This document shows, piece by piece, positions 19,101 through 60,960 of a stretch of DNA of 64,000 nt. Under the pieces are notes generated by a model, which was not told where the DNA came from, did no database searches, and saw nothing but the letters and a program-made list of their open reading frames with translations. The stretch is from Arctopsyche grandis. Lineage: Eukaryota > Arthropoda > Insecta > Trichoptera > Hydropsychidae. The DNA lies in NCBI RefSeq assembly GCF_051622035.1, contig NC_135359.1, positions 27,433,501 through 27,497,500 of the forward strand, read 5' to 3'. How positions within the stretch are numbered: position 1 is the first letter of the stretch; every line of letters starts with the position of its first letter. The position numbers were made by a program, and so were the translations under genes.

Positions 19101-21793
19101 CTTTCATTCACTATCAGGCATGCATTGTGGCAATCCTCTACATTCGGATGCTGTTAAATCTAGCGTATACGAATTAATAGGACGTGAAAAGTTGTTGTGG
19201 TTGATGGGATTAACAGGAGGCACATGCATACTAATACTCATATGTACCATTATTTTAAGCCGTTACAGAAAACAAAATGATATAATTCCACCCGATGCAA
19301 AATCCAACGTATTTAACTCGTCTGCTAAACATCACGAAACATCACTTATTAAGGTGCATTTCATTATAATATAAATCTTATTCATTGAAACTTAGCTTAT
19401 TATAAATAATTATGATTTATAAAAAAAAAGAGAGGATCAAAACTTTCAAATTTGGAAGCTCAATGTGCAATGGCAGTCGGGGACCAATCTTTGTCATACA
19501 CACCTGTAATTCTTGAAGATTCTATTCATTCATCTCAGAACATTCTCAATAGTATTGATATTCTTCGAAGCTACGGACCAACAGGTACTTTCATTAATCT
19601 ATTATATTGCGACTAATACAAAATAAAATAAATTAAAACATAATTCTTTAGGAGAAGATGTTCAATCTGCATCACAACTTGTTCAAAAAAATATTAACAA
19701 TGACGTCGTAGATGGTTCCGGTTCAAACTTCAATAAGCCGAGAAAAGTTTCATGGTCAGAACAAATAAACAGTCGAACGTTTAACGAAAACAATATTATT
19801 AATGGTAATCACTTTATTTATTCTTTCGTCGTAAATCAATATTGTATTTAAAATTTTATTTAATATTAAATCATTATCTTTACTTTTATATTTTTTCATT
19901 GAAGATCTGTCGGGTAAACACAATATCGAAGATAATATCATCAGTCCACCAAAAGGTAATCGATTTATTTTACGGTTAACCCTTTGAATGCTGACCAACG
20001 CCGATCGGCGTTTTGCCAACAAGTCCATGGGCCTGAAAAACGCCAACAGGCGTTGTATTTTGAGCATGTACAAAGTAAAAGAGAATACTACCCGCTAAGC
20101 CTTTCCAGGTAGCATTGAAAAAAAATGCATTCAACATGGGTCGTGTAATCCATGTCATTCATTTGTCTACGTTTATAAAGACTGGTTTACACCGGAATTT
20201 CTGAATTATAACCAAGCAGAATGGAAATCCCTAGCTGCTGAGTAGTTTAGATTGTAGCTTGGCATTTATGTTGCGAGTATTACATTTTAACAACAATGAA
20301 GAAGACGGAACTAGTTTTGGAAAAATACATTCATTAATAGACTCCTTTTGTGTATTTTATATTGTTGCAAGATATATTAGAGAGTTTAAACCAGAGAAAT
20401 GTGGTTTTAGGTGTTATATTTAGAGAAATGTAATATTAATAGAAGTGGCTTTAGGTGTTCTTTTGTAGTCAAGTGACATTCTGTCCACGGACAGATCTAA
20501 ATAGTTTTGGCATCAGTCGTATTTGACGCTTGCTGCTCGACGTATGTCCGATAAAAACTTGTCTGTTTGTTTATATTACTCGCAAGATGGGCAAGCATCA
20601 GTAAAAATTGCAGAATACATTCAAAAACACACAATAAATAACATGGGATACATTTTTATAAGTAAATTGATCCAATTGTATTCTGCGTAAAATTGACAAC
20701 AATTATTTATTCGTAAGGGCCCCTCTATTCTTATTACATCTCTCTAGTCTAAACACACCTTTACAAAACTCGAAATCCTTGGCGGTAGTTATCTAGAGTA
20801 CTGGTCTAGGGTTCGTTTGGATTAACTACAATTTTTATATTAGATGCCTTCTATTGGATTTCTAAATAATTCTAGTTGGAAATGTTGGCGAAATTTTCAG
20901 CGTGGCGGGCTTTCAACAGAAAAGACGTCAAGCCACAATGTAAAATACTCAACAGTTAGGGATTTCCATCGAGAAATTCTGCTATGGTTATAAATTCAGA
21001 AATTCTGGTGTCAACCAGTCTTTATAAATATTGACACAGATTACATGTTCAATGCATTTTTTTTTCAATGCTAACTGGAAAGGCGTATTTTAGCTGATGG
21101 ACTTGTTGGCAAAACGCTGATAGGCGTTGGTCAGCATTCAAAGGGTTAAATAGATTCATAAAATGAAAATCTTTAACACAACATTATTTTACTAAAGGCT
21201 ATCATTGGAGTTGTCCCGATTGGCGAGGCGGGAGCAAAACTGGAAGTCCGCTTTCCAATATAACCGAAATTCCTACAGCCGAATTGGCTGAAACTTCAAG
21301 CTGCCACAGTAACGAAAGTAGTGAGTATTAAATTGTTACTTCAACTTTCAAACCAAACTAAATATATAAAAATAACACATATTTTCTTTCTACGTAATAT
21401 AATAGGTGAAAAATATATTCCACTTCAAACAACATACCCATGTTTTACTTACGACTCCAATTGTGAAACTGAATTAGGCAAACATATTGAATACTATGAA
21501 GACAATAATGGAGTTGAGCCGTATGGATTTCCATCAACTTGTCAACAACCAAACTACATCGGACCTGTTGTCACAATCAGAGGTAGGACAATTTGTATTA
21601 TGCGTATATATGTAATTTATTTTTGAACCTACAAGTAATAAACTGCAACATTTCAGAAGATAGAGGCTCAGTAATACCTGGAAATTTAATCAACAATACC
21701 ATTGTGTGCGACGTGGATGATCGAGACAGCGATTACAGCACTCTTAGAAGAAATCACCGGAAATCCAGCTCATCGCATGATACACAAGTGTGA
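4168..21793 (+). CDS. ft: Fat atypical cadherin, 3' 34 exons (5' partial)
   Basis: Giant adhesion receptor of the Fat/Dachsous planar-polarity and Hippo pathways at the plasma membrane. Exons: 4168-4376, 4456-4563, 4639-4791, 4871-5084, 5790-5929, 6015-6250, 6370-6614, 7067-7253, 7344-7572, 7647-8898, 8985-9209, 10456-10692, 10767-10967, 11070-11264, 11343-11548, 11631-11939, 12013-12157, 12512-12673, 12750-13067, 13139-13441, 13512-13748, 13822-16595, 16683-16935, 17027-17215, 18409-18570, 18688-18845, 18935-19034, 19118-19353, 19431-19584, 19652-19804, 19905-19955, 21198-21320, 21406-21582, 21657-21793. All phases agree, giving about 3,391 residues. About 23 cadherin linkers are visible ([10 protein letters not shown] type), then two EGF-like repeats, one laminin-G, four EGF-like repeats (the last calcium-binding, DIDEC), a membrane segment in the 19118 exon ([18 protein letters not shown]) and a cytoplasmic tail with [13 protein letters not shown] and GYHWSCPDW, which identify Fat rather than Fat2. 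The tail ends in DTQV. The usual second laminin-G was not found. Confidence 0.95.
5334..5636 (-). mobile_element. Solo LTR in fat intron
   Basis: 303 bp beginning TGTAGGGTGAG and ending CTACGTTACA on the plus strand, flanked by a 4-bp TSD, ATAT (5330-5333 and 5637-5640). Read on the minus strand it has LTR logic: TGTAACG start, a TATA-like GTATAAATACTC, an AATAAA signal (ACAATAAACTAC) and a CCCTACA end. A diverged, interrupted relative lies at about 62970-63607. No internal retroelement region is present, so it is a solo LTR left by recombination. Confidence 0.85.
6625..6988. mobile_element. MITE family B, inserted beside a fat splice donor
   Basis: 364 bp including a nested hAT-type MITE. 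Terminal inverted repeats: GGTTCGGTGATTATTGGTCAC-like at the left and the inverse of GGTAATTGGATTATTAGTCAC at the right. An exact 8-bp TSD, AAGTATAT, lies at 6617-6624 and 6989-6996. The left TSD overlaps the splice donor GTAAGT at 6615-6620, so the element sits only ten bases into the intron. Other copies are at about 26576-26795, 27991-31158 (split), 44024-44197 and 57041-57233. Confidence 0.88.
6725..6876. mobile_element. hAT-type MITE nested in family B element
   Basis: 152 bp with ends CATTGCCGGTCTTA and TAAAACCGGCACTG (imperfect inverted repeats). It is flanked by an exact 8-bp TSD, ACGATAAC (6717-6724 and 6877-6884). The ends match the larger element at 41747-42649 (CAGTGCCGGTCTTAG), and both contain GCGCC-rich subterminal sequence. 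Superfamily hAT is inferred from the 8-bp TSD and CAGTG ends. Confidence 0.88.
9278..9439. mobile_element. hAT-like MITE (CAGGGCTTTTTT ends)
   Basis: 162 bp with ends CAGGGCTTTTTTTTT and AAAAAAAGCCCTG. It interrupts the Helitron inside its TATG microsatellite; the other Helitron copy at 17292 is uninterrupted there. The flanks TGTGTGTG and TATGTATG are compatible with an 8-bp TSD but lie in a simple repeat. The GTTCCGGCACCTTTT motif occurs twice inside. Confidence 0.7.
9479..10003 (-). mobile_element. tRNA-derived SINE, minus strand
   Basis: Read on the minus strand, the head contains a pol III A-box-like TGGTCTAGTGGTGAA and a B-box GGTTCGAGTCCC, spaced as in a tRNA. A body containing AATTTGCCAATTTTTCCG and GAAACGGTTCC follows, then a 3' part with TTACCTGTTAAGCCTTCCTG and an AAAATA-repeat tail at the left edge (9479-9500). 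Relatives lie at 27575-27800 and in the Trim9 intron at 35386-36140. Confidence 0.75.
10015..10206 (+). repeat. About 27-bp pyrimidine-rich minisatellite
   Basis: Imperfect tandem units of the type CAGTTCCGGATCCCGATTCC plus a T-run. It belongs to the Helitron body; the same array occurs at about 17345-17431 and 17990-18195 in the second Helitron. Confidence 0.7.
12199..12474. mobile_element. MITE family A, copy 4, in fat intron
   Basis: 276 bp. The left end is CGGGTCTACCTCACGGGCC and the right end GGCCCGTCACGGAGACGG. An exact 8-bp TSD, ACATTATT, lies at 12191-12198 and 12475-12482. It sits in the intron between fat exons 12013-12157 and 12512-12673 and leaves the acceptor (GCTTTAG) intact. 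Confidence 0.9.
17432..17983 (-). mobile_element. Solo LTR related to the 28-31 kb retroelement
   Basis: Read on the minus strand it begins TGTAGGAATCTAGC and ends with GACCGGGACACGGTCAACAC then ATCTATCCCGCGTACTA. The LTR at 30229-31077 has the same layout: TGTAGGAATCTCG start, AATAAA signal, GGCCGGGATACGGTCAACAC, CTACCCCGCCTACA end. It splits the minisatellite of the Helitron. The flanks (CTCTT left, TTCTT right) suggest a degraded short TSD. Confidence 0.7.
17984..18195 (+). repeat. About 27-bp minisatellite in Helitron
   Basis: Seven to eight imperfect CAGTTCCGGATCCSGATTCC-type units. The open frames that cover it translate to repeated [15 protein letters not shown] strings and are artefacts of the repeat. 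Confidence 0.75.
19976..21149. mobile_element. piggyBac-like non-autonomous element in fat intron
   Basis: 1,174 bp including TTAA at both edges (19976-19979, 21146-21149). The terminal inverted repeat reads CCCTTTGAATGCTGACCAAC and continues into CGTTTTGCCAACAAGTCCAT on both sides. TTAA target duplication with CCCTTTG ends is diagnostic of piggyBac-type elements. The interior has no transposase ORF. It fills the intron just before the exon encoding [10 protein letters not shown] related copy, together with flanking fat sequence, lies inverted at 47162-47660. Confidence 0.85.
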
Positions 21794-28105: not shown

Positions 28106-28691
28106 TGTAGGAATCTCGTCATAGTCATCGTCATCGAAACATTCGAGAATATTCCGCAACAACAAACCACATTCCTTGCGGAACTCACATTCATCAAAGC
28201 AGTTACTGCGACGCAGAATACATTCCCGAAAACCAGACGTCGCACACCTGCAACCATTATATTAAACTCAAGCGGAACGCCCCTACCAGTCGAGTGGAAC
28301 CAAAACGGTCGAAACACGCCGCCACCATTAAACCACATCGAGCGGAACGGCGCCAATCATTCCAGAAAATTCTACGCCTCGACAAAAGTGCATTCCTCGT
28401 TCACGCATCAACAACCACATGCGCTTACGCATCAACAACCACTTCCATCAATCGTTCCAGAAAATTCTACGCCTCGACAAAAGTGCATTCCTTTCTTACG
28501 CATCAACAAACCACCACCATCGGTCAGGCGATTCCAGAAACACTATAAAAGGAGGTACAACCCAAACAACGCCAGTCGACCCACAGCAGCAAGCGTCGAC
28601 ACACAGCAGCAGACCAGTCAACATACAGCTCCTGACCAGCCACCACTACACTACGCGGACTTGGAAGATCAACCAGCCGGACGAGCCTACA
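28106..28691 (+). repeat. 5' LTR, internally deleted
   Basis: Matches the 3' LTR from its first base up to GGACGAGCC, then jumps to the terminal TACA. The missing part is about 260 bp of the 3' LTR. Open frames in it (for example at 28294) are duplicated exactly in the 3' LTR and are not genes. Confidence 0.75.
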
Positions 28692-29510
28692 TTGGTACTA
28701 CCCCGACGTGATCTACGCAACCTTCTGATCATTCAACAAGCGCTGTCAACACATTCGCTACCCCGCCTACATTGGTGACCCCATCTTTGAACTACGCAGC
28801 CTTCATAGCAGTCAACAGCGCAGTCAACACGGCAGCCCACAGTGCAGCCTCCACAACAACCAACAGCCGCCACGACAGCAGTCAACAGCGCAGACAACAT
28901 AGCAGCCCACATCGCAGCCTACATAGCAACCGCAGACTTCACGCAACCGCAGCCTTCAACGCAGTCTACAACGCAACCCTCAACGCAGACTTCAAACGCA
29001 GTCCGCTACATGTCCCCACAACTAGTGACCATGTCAAACAACTCCGCAGCTTTCGCCACAACAAAACGCAACCCGGAGACAACAACCAAATGGATCCACT
29101 ACTGTTGATCCGCCAGCACCGCTCATCACACCTTCGATGATTCATCACCTCGATGAGCCCATGCAGGACGCCGCAGCCTGCACAACAGCACCGTCCAGAC
29201 CGTCACAAACCTTCACTACCATTGTAACGACCGCAACAGTAACATGGTGTGAAAGTACATATGGACCAGCTACCAACACAACCCGCTGTTGAGTCAACCC
29301 ACTCCAGCACAACCGGCGAAACAAATCGCCACTGAGCCAACTAGCTCCAACACAACACAGCCGCTGTCGAGACAACTAACTCCAGCACAATCAGCACAAC
29401 GCCTGCACAACAACATCGTCCAGACCACCAACCTTCACTATCAACGTAGCCTAGACAGAATAAGCAACATGGTAGAAAAGAACAACTCGGACTGGTACGC
29501 AAAACGAGAC

Positions 29511-30130
29511 CCGCTGTCGAGACAACCGACTCCAGCACAACCAACGAAGACCAGCACTCAACGCACTTCGCTAACCAACAGTCTCCACACAAATCCCGCT
29601 GTCGAGACAACTAACTCCAGCACAACCAACGAAGACCAGCACTCAACGCACTTCGTCAACCAACGTTCTTCACGCAAGATCCGCTGTCGAGACAACTAAC
29701 TCCAGCACAACCAACGAAGACCAGCACTCAACGCACTTCGTCAACCAACGTTCTTCACGCAAGATCCGCTGTCGAGACAACCAACTCCAGCACAACCAAC
29801 GAAGACCAGCACTCAACGCACTTCGTCAACCAACGTTCTTCACGCAAGATCCGCTGTCGAGACAACCAACTCCAGCACAACCAACGAAGACCAGCACTCA
29901 ACGCACTTCGTCAACCAACGTTCTTCACGCAAGACCCGCTGCCGAGACAACTAACTCCAGCACAACCAACGAAGACCAGCACTCAACGCACTTCGTCAAC
30001 CAACGTTCTTCACGCAAGATCCGCTGTCGAGACAACTAACTCCAGCACAACCAACGAAGACCAGCACTCAACGCACTTCGTCAACCAACGTTCTTCACGC
30101 AAGATCCGCTGTCGAGACAACTTTCTCCAG
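29511..30130 (+). repeat. 85-bp minisatellite inside the LTR element
   Basis: Units start CCGCTGTCGAGACAAC at 29511, 29596, 29681, 29766, 29851, 29936, 30021 and 30106, an exact 85-bp period with about seven full units. Looser relatives occur at 29284 and 29363. Each unit contains TCCAGCACAACCAACGAAG and TTCGTCAACCAACGTTCTTC. As 85 is not divisible by three, each unit shifts the frame; it is not a protein repeat. Confidence 0.9.
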
Positions 30131-30228
30131 CACAACCGGACAAACAACGACGCCATCGAGTCAACAGACTCCAACACATCAAGATTCCCACAAAATCACA
30201 CACATCGCTAACACTCACCGGAGAGCCA

Positions 30229-31077
30229 TGTAGGAATCTCGTCATAGTCATCGTCATCGAAACATTCGAGAATATTCCGCAACAACAAACCACATTCCTT
30301 GCGGAACTCACATTCATCAAAGCAGTTACTGCGACGCAGAATACATTCCCGAAAACCAGACGTCGCACACCTGCAACCATTATATTAAACTCAAGCGGAA
30401 CGCCCCTACCAGTCGAGTGGAACCAAAACGGTCGAAACACGCCGCCACCATTAAACCACATCGAGCGGAACGGCGCCAATCATTCCAGAAAATTCTACGC
30501 CTCGACAAAAGTGCATTCCTCGTTCACGCATCAACAACCACATGCGCTTACGCATCAACAACCACTTCCATCAATCGTTCCAGAAAATTCTACGCCTCGA
30601 CAAAAGTGCATTCCTTTCTTACGCATCAACAAACCACCACCATCGGTCAGGCGATTCCAGAAACACTATAAAAGGAGGTACAACCCAAACAACGCCAGTC
30701 GACCCACAGCAGCAAGCGTCGACACACAGCAGCAGACCAGTCAACATACAGCTCCTGACCAGCCACCACTACACTACGCGGACTTGGAAGATCAACCAGC
30801 CGGACGAGCCAGCAACACACTGCCGTATCCAGAGACCTTCCGAACATAGCCGAACAACGAGCCAGCAACACACTGCCGCATCCAGAGACCTTCTGAACAT
30901 AGCTGAATGCCGAGCCAGCGACACTCTACCATATCCAGAGACCGCTGAACGACATACTTTTGCCCACAAATACCATACCTTTGTACAACCATAAGCAAAC
31001 AATAAAACTTTATAAAACTAGCACAACAGTGTTTCGTTAGGCCGGGATACGGTCAACACCTACCTACCCCGCCTACA
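30229..31077 (+). repeat. 3' LTR, complete
   Basis: 849 bp, TGTAGG to CCTACA. It has three imperfect tandem repeats of about 55 bp around 30805-30950 (AGCCAGCAACACACTGCCG, ATCCAGAGACC). The 3' portion GGCCGGGATACGGTCAACAC is shared with the solo LTR at 17432-17983 and with fragments at 56840-56970. Confidence 0.8.
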
Positions 31078-45671: not shown

Positions 45672-46891
45672 TGGTCCGTACGCACCAAACCAACGACGAT
45701 TTTGGGCCAACTTTTAAAACCAGTAGCGTACAAAATATCGAAATAAAATATCAAAATTAAGCTAACGAGCGAGATTGAGCTTAAATTAGATCATCGTTGA
45801 TGTTTTGAATTACAACAATGTTTTGAATTACGACGAAACGCATTACAACCAGAGAAATATTATAATTACGAGTGAAAAAAACCTTGTTATTGTTTCTTAT
45901 AAGTCGTCACGATACACTACTGTGTTTCCCCCTTCGGAAATATTTAACCAACGACGATTTTGGGCCAACTTTTAAAACCAGTAGCGTACAAAATATCGAA
46001 ATAAAAAAATTGAAATTAAATATCAAAATTAAGCTAACGAGCGAGATTGAGCTAAAATTAGATCATCGTTGATGTTTTGAATTGCAAAAATGTTTTGAAT
46101 TACGACGAAACGCATTACAACCAGAGAAATATTATAATTACGAGTGAAAAAAACCTTGTTATTGTTTCTTATAAGTCGTCACGATACACTACTGTTTCGC
46201 CATCGAATGAAATATTTAACAAAAATAATGTCGGTGAATTTTTTTTTTCTTTCGTCGAAATAAAATTAATAATCACACATTATCCGATAAATTTTACCTC
46301 TGAGATGGGTTTAATTATTTGATTTATTTCGATGAGAGAAACAATTGAAGACATTATCCGATAAAATTTACCTCTGAAATGATTTAATTAATTGATTTAT
46401 TTCGACGAGAGAAACAATTGAAGACTAAAAAAATTTCGTTTGATAAACCGACAACGTGTCGGGTTGGGACCATCACTCGGTCACCCATACTAACACATGA
46501 TATATTCTCAGTAATTGCGCATTACGGGGAAGTAAAAATAATAATTCATTGATTTTTTTTTTTCGATCTTAGTGCGTATCTACGTAAGTCAAAACATCTT
46601 CGACAAACAAAAGTCGAGGATGATCTAATTTTAGGTCAATCTCGAAAATTTATTTAAATTGGGCATGTTCTGTTTTAACTTTCAATATTTTATTTTAAAT
46701 TTAATATATTGATTAAAATTTTATTTTGATATTTGAATTTAATTTTAATATAATAATAATATTTTTAATTTTGATATTTGATTTCAATTTTTAAATTTAA
46801 TTTTTATTTCGATATTTTGTACGCTACTGGTTTTATCCTACTGGTTAAAACGTTGGATCAAAATCGTCGTTGGTTTGGTCCGTACGCAGCA
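45672..46891. mobile_element. Large inverted-repeat DNA element with TTA target duplication
   Basis: 1,220 bp with ends TGGTCCGTACGCACCAAACC and the inverse of TGCTGCGTACGGACCAAACC, both continuing into AACGACGATTTT. It is flanked by TTA (45669-45671 and 46892-46894). The related sequence at 23917-24046 lacks the insertion (GGGTCTCTTAGACTG), confirming the borders. A 258-bp direct tandem duplication (starts about 45691 and 45949) fills the left part, and the right part (46600-46890) is the inverse of it. A 3-bp TTA duplication suggests PIF/Harbinger, but no transposase is present. Confidence 0.75.
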
Positions 46892-47161
46892 TTAGACTGT
46901 ATTCGTTGGGGGAATGGTGGCCTCATGTTGAGGACTTTAAGGGTCAAATTCCTTGACCTTTAAAGCGGGCTTAGACTGTAGTCTTCACTCGCTGCTGAAT
47001 CGGAAGTGATCCAACCATAGATGTATAATACATAGATCCGCCCTCACGCTTTAAACTGGTCTCCCTTTTGGCGCATGCACGTTTATGTTCAGCACCGAAA
47101 AGGAATCGGGCTCGATCCCGTGCTAATCTTTAACGTTTTGTGTGCTGACGTCTTTTTTTTT

Positions 47162-47660
47162 AATTCGGCTAATTCACCTGCAGGAATTTCGGTTATATTG
47201 GAAAGTGGACTTCCAGTTTTGCTCCCGCCTCATCAATCGGGACAACTGTAATGATAACCTTTAGTCAAATAATGTTGTGTTAAAGATTTTCATTTTATGA
47301 GTCTATTTAACCCTTTGATTGCTGGCGTATTTTATGTTGAAAGCCCGCCACGCTGAAAATTTCGTCAACATTTCCAACTTAAGTTATTTAGAAATCTAAT
47401 AGAAAGCAGGTATAAAAATTATAGCTAATTCAAACAAACTCTAGATAACTACCACCGAGAATTTCGAGTTTTGTAAAGATGTGTTTAGACTCTCTAATAT
47501 ATCTTGCAACAATGTAAAATAAACAAAAGAAGTCTATTAATGAATGTATAGATATTTCATCTTCTTCATCGTTGTTAAAATGTAGTGAATGCTCAATCTA
47601 AAATACTCGGTAGTTAGGATTTCCTTCAGGACATTTTGCTATGGTTATAAATTCATTCAT
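47162..47660 (-). pseudogene. Inverted duplicate of a fat exon fragment plus piggyBac-like end
   Basis: The reverse complement of 47162-47309 matches fat 21146-21287 at roughly 90% identity by eye: intron end, acceptor ACTAAAG and about 90 bp of the exon encoding GYHWSCPDW. In the copy the frame reads CCCGATTGATGA, giving stops. Beyond 47306 the match continues into the piggyBac-like element (TTAACCCTTTG, AAGCCCGCCACGCTGAAAAT, then blocks matching about 20290-20390), with internal deletions. It lies in the first intron of cropped. It cannot encode protein. Confidence 0.85.
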
Positions 47661-47811
47661 AGAGATTTCTCTTAGATACTTTAAACTTTTGTAAAATCCT
47701 ACGGTTCTTTTAAATCCCAATCAGATTATGTGAATAATATATCGTTGCTGTTTACAAATTATAATAAGATTTTGTTTTCTATTATAGGCTCGGAATAAAA
47801 ATCGTCACACA

Positions 47812-49024
47812 ATGGAGACTGAGAAGCGTATACGACGAGAGATAGCCAACAGCAACGAGCGACGACGTATGCAAAGCATCAATGCTGGTTTTCAATCTTT
47901 ACGTACGTTGCTCCCTCGACACGAAGGTGAAAAATTGAGCAAGGTGAGTCGAACGAATCTAAATTTTTCATCATTTGAACTTTTCAATAATATATGCAGG
48001 ACATTACAAATCTATTTTTTTTTTTCTCATCTAGGCTGCAATACTACAACAGACCGCCGAATATATATACATATTAGAACAGGAAAAAACGCAATTACTC
48101 TCTCAAAATTGTCAACTCAAGCGATTGCTAAGTCAACACGAAGGCGGTGAAATTCCTTTGAAGAAACGGAAAGAAAAAGTAATGCTCGCCGATTGCGCAG
48201 TCCTGTCTGAAACCTCCGACGACGTCGCGGGGAGCGTGTCTCCGGACCCGATAACCATCGTATCGGTCACGAGTCTCCCCAACACCGCCAACATCTCCCC
48301 GAACTCTGAACTCGCCGATCTCCAGTTGAAACTGGAGAGAGAGAGACAGATGCGAATGGCGCTAGAGGATCAGATGCAATCGCTCGAATCTCACATGTAT
48401 CCCGAGAGTATCGGAGACCTGCCGCACCAGATCACGCTGCAGTACGAAAACACCGAAGTGATCGAACAGAGCGACGTGCTGAGAGACATGGTGTCGGTGG
48501 CGCTGGTGCCCGACGAGTCCCTCGACAATAGAATAAACGACGCGGACGAAATGCAACTCGTCTCCATAGACGCGGTCGCCGAACATCACACAGTCGCCGA
48601 GTCGGACGCGTGTTCGCGACCCGTCAGCCCCGTCGACATGGCCATCGTCGAGGAGGAGGAGGAGGAGGAGCAGCGCTCGTCGTCGCCCATCATCCAGAGC
48701 CCGTTATTAGAGGCGGCGATCAAAGCCGAGCCCAAAGTAGAAGTGGAAGTATTACCCGGACCGGGAACGGTGTCCCCGGGAGAGCCCTCGCGGCTCTTCT
48801 TGGCGAGCACCTCCCGACAGAACCTGGAGACCATCGTGGAGGCGATCCGCCATCTCGAGGGTGACCACATGTTCGCCGAGGAGCAACCGGGACGCGAACA
48901 AGAACTACCTTTAGCGCTCACCAACAAACCCGACCAACGGCGGCTGCGAGTCGACATGAACGACTATCTTCACTTCCACCATCCGCAGTCTCGTCCCGGT
49001 GTCATCGTAGGGAAGCACTCGTGA
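47812..49024 (+). CDS. crp: bHLH-leucine zipper factor cropped / AP-4
   Basis: Nuclear E-box-binding transcription factor, orthologue of TFAP4; in Drosophila crp controls growth and tracheal and dendrite branching. Coding exons 47788-47943 (ATG at 47812) and 48035-49024 give 373 residues. The bHLH reads RIRREIANSNERRRMQSINA then FQSLRTLLPRHEGEKLSK, continuing over the splice into AAILQQTAEYIYILEQEK and a zipper TQLLSQNCQLKRLLSQ; this is nearly identical to vertebrate AP-4. A second heptad region lies near LQLKLERERQMRMALEDQMQ. A run of eight glutamates follows at about 48650-48670. There is no stop between the acceptor at 47787 and the ATG, so translation may begin in the GC-rich upstream exon. 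The last exon is much more GC-rich than the surrounding genes. Confidence 0.93.
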
Positions 49025-57463: not shown

Positions 57464-60400
57464 ATGGTGGGGCGTTCCACTAAACTCTTCGTCCTCAAGC
57501 GAGGTATATATCTGTGTATATCCTTATGCCTCATTTTTATACCTATTAGGCATATTGGTCGATATTGGGGCACTTTCCTCGATTCTAAGGTGGCCACATT
57601 TACAGAACCTCAAAGCAGCGCAGTAGTAGCAATTCTCATTGTTCAAGAGGAAATTTCTCTCAAAGCCATTTTCCATAATGGCCCTCATTTGAATAATCTA
57701 CACTTATATATATTCAGAATATTGTGTTTATGATATATCGGTGATGCCTAACGGCGGGCTACTCATCATGTTTGCAGTATATTTCAAATCGTTTTTGATT
57801 TGGTTCTTTACTAGCCTTTACCTATAGAATCTCAAGTAAATGTTAAGCAATCAGCAGATTGTCTGTTATATAAAAAAATAAAGTAAAAATTCAAAAACTT
57901 CATACAAATCACTACAAATATAAAATTATTTTTATAGTGCAAAATCATTGCAATAAATTGTTACAAATTTATATAAATGTGATTATATATTCTGCTGGTT
58001 TCCATTTATTGATTTTACATATTAAAAGAAAAATGCACAGAAAAAGACAATTCATCCAACTGTTGTTCCTTGTGGTTTAATTGATTTTTTTTAAGCTCAA
58101 GATTTTTGTCATATTTGCATCAAACTGTACTCACTGTTGATGGTTTACTATTATTTTACAGGTGGACGTAAAGAAGAAGTACATATTGACAAAATTACTT
58201 CCCGAATCCAAAAGCTGTGCTATGGTCTCGACATGGACTATGTCGATCCGGTAAATATATATTTCAGTTTATTGCTAAAATGAACAGTGGATCAAATGCA
58301 TAAAGAATACAAGGCGCATTATTGCATCATCGTGAATGATTTTCGCATAATGTAACATTTGACAATCTTTATTTAGTCGCATGATCCATTCCTGAGATCA
58401 TATTGAAGTATTTTGTGGTGTTTTTGAGCTGATGAGCTACCTCCATTTTTCTTTAGATTTCCTCATTACTTTGGCTACTCTCATTAGACATTAGATAATA
58501 TATAGTTGTTAAGTACTATTTAATAATTTTGTTATTATGTTGTATTGTAGCTGGATTTATATCGTATGTATTTTTATTTATTATTAACGTTATGTTTCCA
58601 GGTTCGTATTACTCTAAAAGTCATCAGTGGAATATATTCAGGTGTAACTACAGTCGAATTAGATAATTTGGCTGCTGAGACTGCGGCAACGATGACGACC
58701 GATCACGCAGACTATGCAATACTTGCAGCCCGTTTGGCAATCTCCAATCTTCACAAAGAAACCAAAAAACAGTTTTCAGGTAATTTTTAATCAGATCTTA
58801 TAATACATATTGTATTTGCCGTAGAAAAACTTGACCTGATCATACTAATTAATCGTAATTTCAGAGGTGATGAGTGATTTATACAACATTGAATGCCCTC
58901 ACACGAAAAGGAAGTCACCGATGATATCAGATTTTCACCATAAGGTGATTATAGAAAATGCTGAAAGATTAGATTCTTCCATCATATACGACAGGGATTT
59001 CAATTACAATTATTTTGGATTCAAAACATTAGAGAGATCGTATTTACTTAAAATAAATGGTAAAGTGGTTGAAAGACCACAGCATATGTTGATGAGGGTT
59101 GCTGTTGGCATTCACGGTGAAAGTATTGACGAAGCTATCGAAACCTACAATTTGCTATCGGAAAAGTATTTCACTCACGCCAGTCCCACTTTATTTTCTG
59201 CTGCTACTCCAAGACCTCAGCTTTCTTCCTGTTTCTTGATCGGCATGCGAGATGATAGCATTGAAGGTATCTACGATACTCTTAAGCAATGTGCACTGAT
59301 TTCCAAATCAGCAGGAGGTATTGGTTTACACGTACACTGTATAAGAGCGAAAGGAACCTACATTGCTGGTACTAATGGAATCTCAAACGGTTTAGTCCCG
59401 ATGTTAAGAGTATACAACAACACTGCAAGATACGTTGATCAGGGTGGGAACAAACGACCCGGAGCATTCGCTATTTACGTCGAGCCTTGGCATGCTGACA
59501 TATTCGATTTCCTGGATTTGAAAAAGAATACTGGCAAAGAAGAAGTGAGAGCTCGTGACTTGTTCTACGCTCTATGGATTCCAGATTTATTTATGAAACG
59601 AGTTGAAAATAACGAAGAGTGGAGTCTCATGTGTCCTCACGATGCACCTGGATTGTACGATTGCTGGGGGGAGGATTTTGAAAAATTATACACAAAATAC
59701 GAAGCCGAAGGGCGATTCAAACGAAAGATTCATGCCCAAACTTTATGGTTCGCCATTATAGAATCCCAAGTTGAAACCGGCACTCCGTATATGCTCTATA
59801 AGGACTCGTGTAATAGGAAAAGTAATCAAAAGAATTTGGGTACTATTAAATGCAGCAATTTGTGTACTGAAATTGTAGAATACACATCCGAAGATGAGAT
59901 AGCAGTATGTAATCTGGCATCCATTGCCGTCAACATGTTCGTGAAAGATGATAAGACGTATGATTTCAATAAACTGAAAACTGTTGCAAAGACAGTTACT
60001 AAAAACCTCAATAAAATTATAGAAGTCAACTTTTACCCAGTTCCAGAGGCTGAAAAGTCAAATAAACGTCACCGTCCTATAGGTATTGGAATCCAAGGTT
60101 TAGCTGATGCTTTCGTTTTAATGCGTTTGCCTTTCGAGAGTGAAAAAGCCCAACTTTTGAATCAACAAATATTTGAGACTATTTATTACGGCGCTTTGGA
60201 AGCAAGCTGCGAGCTGGCTGAACTTCTCGGTACTTACGAAACCTACCCTGGCTGTCCAGTCAGTCAAGGTATCTTGCAGTATGAAATGTGGGATAAAACA
60301 CCCACGGAATTGTGGAATTGGTCAGAACTGAAAGAAAAAATATCAAAACACGGAGTAAGAAACTCCTTATTGTTAGCTCCGATGCCTACCGCTTCCACGG

Positions 60401-60960
60401 CTCAAATTCTAGGCAACAATGAGTCGTTTGAACCTTTCACTTCCAACATATACACACGAAGAGTGTTATCCGGAGACTTTCAGGTCGTCAACCATCATTT
60501 GATTCGTGACCTGAGTGAGGCCAACCTATGGAACGATGACATGAAAAATTTGATCATCTCCAACAATGGCTCCATTCAAAATTTAGACTGCATCCCGAAA
60601 GATATACGCGAGCTGTACAAAACTGTCTGGGAAATTTCTAATAAAGTGCTTATTAAAATGGCAGCCGATAGGGGCGCATTTATTGATCAGAGCCAATCGT
60701 TCAACATCCACGTAGCTGAACCAAACTATGGAAAGCTTACTTCCATTCACTTTTACGGTTGGAAAATCGGACTCAAAACTGGAATGTACTATTTGAGGAC
60801 AAAACCGGCGGCGAATGCCATCCAGTTCACAGTCGACAAAGCTAGAGCAAAAGAAAAGTTCACGAATGGTAATAGTAAGAAGGTCGATACTGATGAAAAT
60901 ATGGCAATGATTTCATGCTCACTCGAAAACAAAGACGATTGCTTGATGTGCGGTTCTTAA
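57464..60960 (+). CDS. RnrL: Ribonucleoside-diphosphate reductase large subunit
   Basis: Class Ia ribonucleotide reductase alpha subunit, which reduces NDPs to dNDPs with the small R2 subunit in the cytosol. Exons 57464-57503, 58162-58250, 58602-58779 and 58865-60960 join in phase to 800 residues (human RRM1 792). The N terminus [20 protein letters not shown] begins the ATP-cone activity domain (about 1-100). Catalytic residues are present: PQLSSCF (redox cysteine), [11 protein letters not shown] (radical Cys with Asn and Glu), VCNLAS (second redox cysteine), MYYLRT (tandem tyrosines of the radical path) and the C-terminal CLMCGS swinging pair. The start is the first ATG in a favourable context (ACCATGG). 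Full length with no breaks. Confidence 0.97.

Follow-up and report, generated by a model that had tools for sequence, protein, structure and literature searches.

In the window, i.e. the whole stretch of 64,000 nucleotides of Arctopsyche grandis DNA analysed here, a fragment of one gene recurs in an intron of another. The donor gene, which we take to be fat, contains a frame encoding GYHWSCPDW, presumably part of the fat cytoplasmic domain, downstream of a same-strand ORF with five cadherin stretches and a FAT4-like cadherin match. The acceptor gene, which we take to be cropped, has an exon at 47788..47943 (+ strand) that encodes an HLH domain (PF00010, E 2.9e-11) of the cropped/AP-4-like type, and the copied fragment is located in the intron upstream of this exon. 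The window also contains a direct tandem duplication of ~0.27 kb (90%) at 45688-46223, upstream of the cropped HLH exon, two identical 582-bp copies (28106-28687 and 30229-30810) that flank an ~85-bp repeat array (29176-30137) with long open frames, and a frame for the large subunit of ribonucleotide reductase at 58867-60960 (TIGR02506, E 1.4e-213).

A BLAST comparison inside the 64-kb window aligned 47164-47324 with 21292-21132 on opposite strands, without gaps, over 161 bp at 91.3% identity (E ~1e-60), which bears out the original prediction of a reverse-complement copy of a fat intron end, its splice acceptor and the following exon. The host-derived part comprises 143 bp, such that 47164-47306 (- strand) is the reverse complement of 21150-21292 (+ strand) with 13 mismatches and with uninterrupted matches of 34, 25 and 24 nt. 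In fat the donor stretch consists of the intron end (21150-21197) and the exon from 21198 (GYHWSCPDW...), the exon start being placed by eye from the AG, and the copy thus holds ~95 bp of exon and 48 bp of preceding intron including the splice acceptor. Mismatches amount to 2/48 in the intron part and 11/95 in the exon part, and the copied exon carries two in-frame stops (TGG->TGA and CGA->TGA). Because intron sequence is included, the fragment is not a processed mRNA copy, as had already been argued, and the T-tract at its exon end overlaps the MITE's own end. When the whole genome (475,669,232 bases, i.e. 476 Mb, in 189 contigs) was searched with 47150-47330, two candidates were returned and both were scored, namely fat and the cropped intron, so that the inserted segment has a single other genomic location, the fat donor. 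The two copies are separated by 25.9 kb (~26 kb) and inverted relative to each other, and the copy is antisense to fat when read in the direction of the cropped transcript. It had also been considered that the similarity might be confined to transposon sequence or that the exon might belong to the element consensus; the similarity was found to extend into host DNA, and the exon as a piece of the element was ruled out by the two genomic places as well as by the 589-bp consensus described below.

The repeat that adjoins both copies of the fat fragment belongs to one large TTAA-flanked family, for which a majority consensus of 589 bp was built from a panel of 35 copies. The consensus has two unlike ends, END1 (TTAACCCTTTGAGTGCTGACGTCTTTT) and END2 (TTAACCCTTTGAATGCTGACCAACGCC), of which ~20 bp are alike at 95%, and it reads TTAACCC...GGGTTAA, that is, a TTAA target duplication with CCC tips. 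TTAA at both ends, tips starting with CCC and a short length are hallmarks of piggyBac-like MITEs, and judged by TTAA and the CCC tips the family looks like a piggyBac-like MITE, being alike in all three features but differing in the asymmetry of END1 and END2. The END1 37-mer was matched 828 + 810 = 1638 times in the genome at <=3 mismatches, with no match for the reversed control. Positions 31-34 of the END1 consensus read TTGA, TTAA being present in 2 of the 33 panel copies with bases there. The END1 consensus has no TTAA at positions 5-40, but this tetranucleotide is present within 5-60 in six of the 35 panel copies, so that a target for nested insertion can exist. A plain insertion of one MITE into another was nevertheless rejected, since fat DNA would not be introduced in this way and since, in the stretches examined, the rest of END1 does not reappear behind the MITE. 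At another locus of the family (L019, C7:3238267-3241692), three END2-type ends are arranged in tandem with 367-bp spacing beside one MITE.

In the cropped intron the fragment is adjoined by the acceptor MITE (47307..47655, + strand), which comprises the TTAA, a complete END1 and the core (consensus 1-363) and is 87.9% identical to the 589-bp consensus, while its END2 half is absent and unique sequence follows. Across the fragment, at 47130..47163 (+ strand), lies an END1 stub of the acceptor MITE, consisting of the TTAA and outer END1, which can be followed clearly to consensus position 27. The original prediction, which spanned 47162..47660, included the fragment and the MITE but missed this stub (47130-~47163). 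The stub is 88.9% identical to consensus 1-27 (BLAST), and in an ungapped comparison 28 of 35 bases match END1, a value not reached when the region was dinucleotide-shuffled 3000 times (maximum 24); scores of >=24 to END1 occur within the window, on either strand, at MITE ends only. The tail of the stub (47157-47163) is T-rich, ends with TTAA at END1 positions 31-34 and may be either filler or END1 altered by mutation. Indeed, the T9 tract beside the exon end falls on the END1 consensus GTCTTTTCTGTTGAA, with the remainder of END1 preceding it. The stub has the same orientation as the complete END1 on the opposite side, and since it lies outside the fat fragment, the order in cropped is END1 stub, fat fragment, complete END1 and MITE core. 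The host fragment and a second MITE end therefore lie within a MITE end, i.e. the presumed break is inside a repeat, with the END1 stub on one side and the complete END1 and core on the other. To the left of the stub, 47014-47080 represents 67 bp of a repeat, and a query with 46976-47163 gave 1341 first-look candidates.

The MITE beside the fat exon (19976..21149, - strand) is located between TTAA sites and is broken up at 20392-20745 by a different sequence, which in part matches C13:22585595-22585958 at 85%. At the end adjoining the exon (20930..21149, + strand), an inverted END2-type arm takes the place of the outer END1. The junction of this arm occurs exactly in fat alone genome-wide, two other places having it at 3 mismatches, which indicates that the end of the fat element itself was rebuilt, probably in place. 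Since the end next to the exon is now of the END2 type, the END1 of the donor is gone. The cropped and fat MITEs have no rare variant in common over 339 columns, and the cropped MITE as a direct copy of fat's present MITE was rejected on this ground. Thus, the proposal that the fragment is joined to the piggyBac-like element beside the fat exon stands with respect to the MITE family, but not to that individual copy in its present form, from which the cropped MITE differs in its rare variants and in its end.

The arrangement recurs in the genome. When the genome was scanned for pairs of like-oriented END1 with a spacing of 40-500 bp, a pattern that detects stubs of >=27 bp only, 12 places were found, against none for the reversed-pattern control. 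Besides cropped and L008, eight places (L076-L083) were read, two of which (L079 and L080) belong to four C2 places that begin alike and were counted as one arrangement, the other two C2 places being left out. The two END1 have no gap between them at L081 and a gap of ~24 bp at L082, neither of which was traced. Seven arrangements contain fragments of >=111 bp, and six were traced, the C2 group (L079/L080) being left out. A second copy on the same chromosome within ~65 kb was found for at least five of the six traced fragments, so that four places other than cropped carry such a scar with a local source. The source lies 26 kb away for cropped, 28 kb for L008 on C9 (END1 1-37, 233 bp and a complete MITE, the fragment matching in two pieces at 89% and 88%), 28 kb for L078 (98%), 52 kb for L076 (95%) and 65 kb for L083 (94%). 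For L077, no local source was present among the best 40 of 883 candidates; a donor candidate 10.6 Mb away, with a 76% match and no MITE match within 901 bp, was not counted. In the five sourced cases the stubs adjoin the edge of the fragment, and two of the donors are inverted and three direct, so that the inversion between fat and cropped merely reflects the orientation of the MITEs. The suggestion that such fragments may be widespread, in which case the element family might capture exons, is borne out by a modest number of places, at least 5/6 of those traced having a local source, and an exon as cargo was observed at cropped, the one locus among them where genes were annotated. In the C2 group, a composite of part of END1, ~111 bp and a complete MITE is present at four places (L079 and L080 at C2:33.27 and 34.26 Mb, as well as C2:31931350 and 34484653); ~100 bp of AT-rich left flank and ~14 bp of right flank align between L079 and L080 before the sequences diverge, as if the composite had turned mobile or had been carried by another repeat.

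All five sources have a MITE in matching orientation at the fragment or within ~316 bp of it. In three of them (L084, L085 and L086) the fragment directly abuts the END1 of the MITE, and in fat it abuts the MITE at the same TTAA, at the rearranged end. In the L008 source the fragment ends at TTAACCTTT, and END1 follows ~316 bp further on. The two matching pieces of this source (L065/L071, C9:24312230-24316168) are split by ~0.7 kb that resembles a later repeat insertion; since it is present in the source and absent from the copy, copying was probably earlier than the insertion. Rare variants are common to the MITEs of source and acceptor in three cases other than cropped, with eight for L078, eight for L076 and four for L083, as compared to a mean of 0.86 and a maximum of 5 in 300 random panel pairs, such that the four of L083 alone lie within the null range. 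The L008 pair has none over 563 columns. At L078, seven of the eight shared variants are found within consensus 1-363, as though the copied tract extended beyond the fragment into part of the MITE and ended there, which would be a mark of synthesis from the source. At L076 the flanks on both sides of the MITE are shared with the partner, one edge of which carries an END2 stub, so that copying may have gone either way there. Between fragment edges and stubs, 0 to ~4 bp of microhomology are seen.

As a control, 10 ordinary MITEs with the END1 tip at the edge of the match were taken from a longer list, and the 150 bp beyond END1 of each were searched. Among the matches listed, at least one of the 10 flanks (L026) recurs within 100 kb; for part of the control flanks one repeat made up 34 of the 40 scored places, and local copies of the other four flanks may be hidden. 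The difference between stub-bearing (5/6) and ordinary flanks (1/10), among the matches listed, gave a Fisher p of 0.0076, or 0.017 without the cropped locus. In the L026/L088 pair (C3:36.86 and 36.90 Mb) the second copy is 34 kb away, with 78% identity in the flank and no stub seen; ~128 bp of flank and the MITE are common to both, at 82% over flank plus MITE. This pair is probably an older local duplication, demonstrating that local duplication of a flank together with its MITE also arises without a stub.

The order of the parts at cropped and its recurrence beside local MITE copies probably arose when a broken MITE was repaired, synthesis being primed on a nearby MITE copy, extended into the host flank and completed by end joining (SDSA/DDSA type). 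The cropped intron would have held a MITE of the TTAA-flanked family, and a break would have occurred in its END1, ~27-34 bp from the tip. The end on the inner side of the break would then have primed on the inverted MITE at the fat exon, 26 kb away, and the new DNA would have exited the template END1 and continued into 143 bp of fat, before the released strand was end-joined to the outer END1 stub. The resulting scar would consist of END1 stub, host fragment, complete END1 and the rest of the MITE. In this scheme we infer that a break occurred, what caused it, in which direction and when copying took place, and that the fat MITE formerly had a normal END1. Within the stretches examined, a single MITE body follows the fragment at L008, L076, L078 and L083, as expected if the acceptor retained its own body. 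Given that the cropped MITE has no rare variants in common with that of fat, any MITE tract taken over from fat may have been short, or the event may date far back. A feature that the repair model does not predict is seen at L083, where both END1 copies stop near consensus 183. In three of the seven arrangements the stubs measure 27-34, 32 and 37 bp (only those of >=27 bp being detectable), which hints at a preferred place of breakage. At cropped (47160-47163) and L008 (stub L008:2334-2370), a TTAA at END1 31-34 lies directly beside the fragment, and a failed attack on this TTAA as the source of the break is a conjecture that fits both the acceptor TTAA and the missing remainder of END1. A more general scheme, which we regard as speculative and rather doubtful, is that END1 is a recurrent break point where failed transposase attack on an inner TTAA leaves a break, that repair on nearby MITEs shuffles 0.1-0.25 kb of host DNA, exons included, across tens of kb, and that the antisense fat exon in the cropped transcript could yield small RNAs against fat. 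Judged from its sequence, an siRNA role of this antisense copy could be envisaged.

Other routes to the same arrangement have to be weighed against MITE-primed repair. Templates could have been switched, during replication or by a polymerase otherwise at work, via short microhomology, namely the TTAACC of the MITE tip, with no need for a donor MITE to prime on. When the fat flanks are rejoined across the MITE, TTAACCG is obtained on the side of the fragment, the L008 source reads GGATTAACCTTTCC at the fragment end without a MITE at that TTAA, and neither the cropped nor the L008 pair has any shared rare MITE variant, all of which is in line with such a switch. However, all five sources have a MITE of matching orientation no more than ~316 bp from the fragment, and the eight rare variants shared in each of the L078 and L076 pairs point to a long homologous tract, so that we consider template switching unlikely. 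A lower probability still is given to piggyBac macrotransposition, which the original prediction had put forward as mobilisation with one real and one cryptic end, and in which the fat MITE and its host flank would have inserted into a TTAA within another END1. The acceptor does have a TTAA beside the fragment in two of five cases (cropped and L008), in both at END1 31-34, where it is rare in the panel (2/33), and at its other edge the fragment meets a TTAA followed by END1. Yet none of the five donors, fat included, has a TTAA at the outer edge of the fragment, and the acceptor edge is without TTAA in L076, L078 and L083. Insertion should, moreover, leave the rest of the acceptor END1 and body beyond END2, which is absent where searched: no same-direction MITE match was found beyond the MITE in L008 and L076 (~1.5-1.6 kb each) or in shorter stretches of L078 and L083, and at cropped unique sequence follows the MITE, the target END1 not resuming. 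The body of the cropped MITE also differs from that of fat (0 shared rare variants).

The alternative offered in the original prediction, a segmental inverted duplication, remains apt as a description, but as a mechanism ectopic MITE-primed break repair accounts better for the locus. Ordinary duplication of the fat flank and its MITE, with later conversion of the MITE and an unrelated truncated MITE as the stub, has simplicity in its favour, and MITEs are dense (1638 END1 37-mers at <=3 mismatches), while the ordinary flank L026 is also locally duplicated with its MITE included. That the stub should abut the fragment edge in all five sourced cases, and that a local second copy is found for 5/6 stub-bearing against 1/10 ordinary flanks, among the matches listed, makes this account very improbable. 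If an unspliced, polyadenylated fat transcript had been inserted by LINE-type retroposition, the T9 tract beside the exon end, which has the right orientation, would be explained, but the tract falls on END1 sequence preceded by the rest of END1, and the attached MITE is not that of fat; inspection by eye of the sequence from 47656 onward gave no match for a target-site duplication, and we give this origin hardly any credence.

With MITE-primed repair as the preferred reading, the scar of END1 stub, host flank and complete END1 can be read directly from an assembly, which makes the repair of transposon breaks on neighbouring copies countable genome-wide in an insect, and both donor and acceptor are identified for it. 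If such events are common, MITE-dense genomes would shift host fragments locally by repair, without transposition of the fragment, which would bear on the spread of gene pieces and splice sites. A search for literature on double-strand breaks at piggyBac elements or MITEs with template switching found nothing, and we make no firm claim that the scar is unreported.

The type of event itself is already known, in broad terms, from other animals. Available passages on repair-mediated duplications (RDs) describe 1,136 insertions within human repeats that have one other genomic copy, of which 824 have donors within 5 kb; proximal RDs have a mean of 162 bp and a median of 147 bp, and a few contain exons (Pace et al., 2009; PMC2671141). 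As far as these passages go, the present cases are alike in that a host fragment, here of ~111-233 bp, lies inside a copy of a transposable element, with a template on the same chromosome, microhomology or filler at the edges and occasional exons (PMC2671141). By contrast, most human donors are located within 5 kb and need not adjoin the same repeat (PMC2671141), whereas the donors here are 26-65 kb off, next to a second member of the MITE family, and the scar contains END1 twice. Since the 25.9 kb between fat and cropped exceed 5 kb, this pair falls outside the confident class of Pace et al. (2009). In DDSA, as summarised in passages on the work of Fiston-Lavier et al. (2007), a break in a repeat is repaired by copying an ectopic site of the same repeat, such that adjacent DNA is duplicated, and intrachromosomal events in Drosophila average 3.1 kb (PMC3276153; PMC3420103). 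According to the same passages, the break within a repeat and a donor site that holds this repeat next to the duplicated DNA are common to both, but the fragments here measure ~0.1-0.25 kb and come from one MITE family, the sole one examined. One end-joined junction (blunt, with filler or with microhomology), a feature of DDSA/SDSA, is present as well. During P-element-induced gap repair, as one passage on it reports, non-homologous DNA can be copied from an ectopic template into the transposon break (Nassif et al., 1994; PMC3276153). The copying of ectopic non-homologous DNA into a break at a transposon is alike, but judging from this passage the events here differ in being natural, at a non-autonomous MITE and with transposase as a putative breaker only. 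By this comparison the cropped case appears to fit DDSA in kind and RDs in size, and its interest lies in the recurrence on one MITE family and in the exon as cargo.
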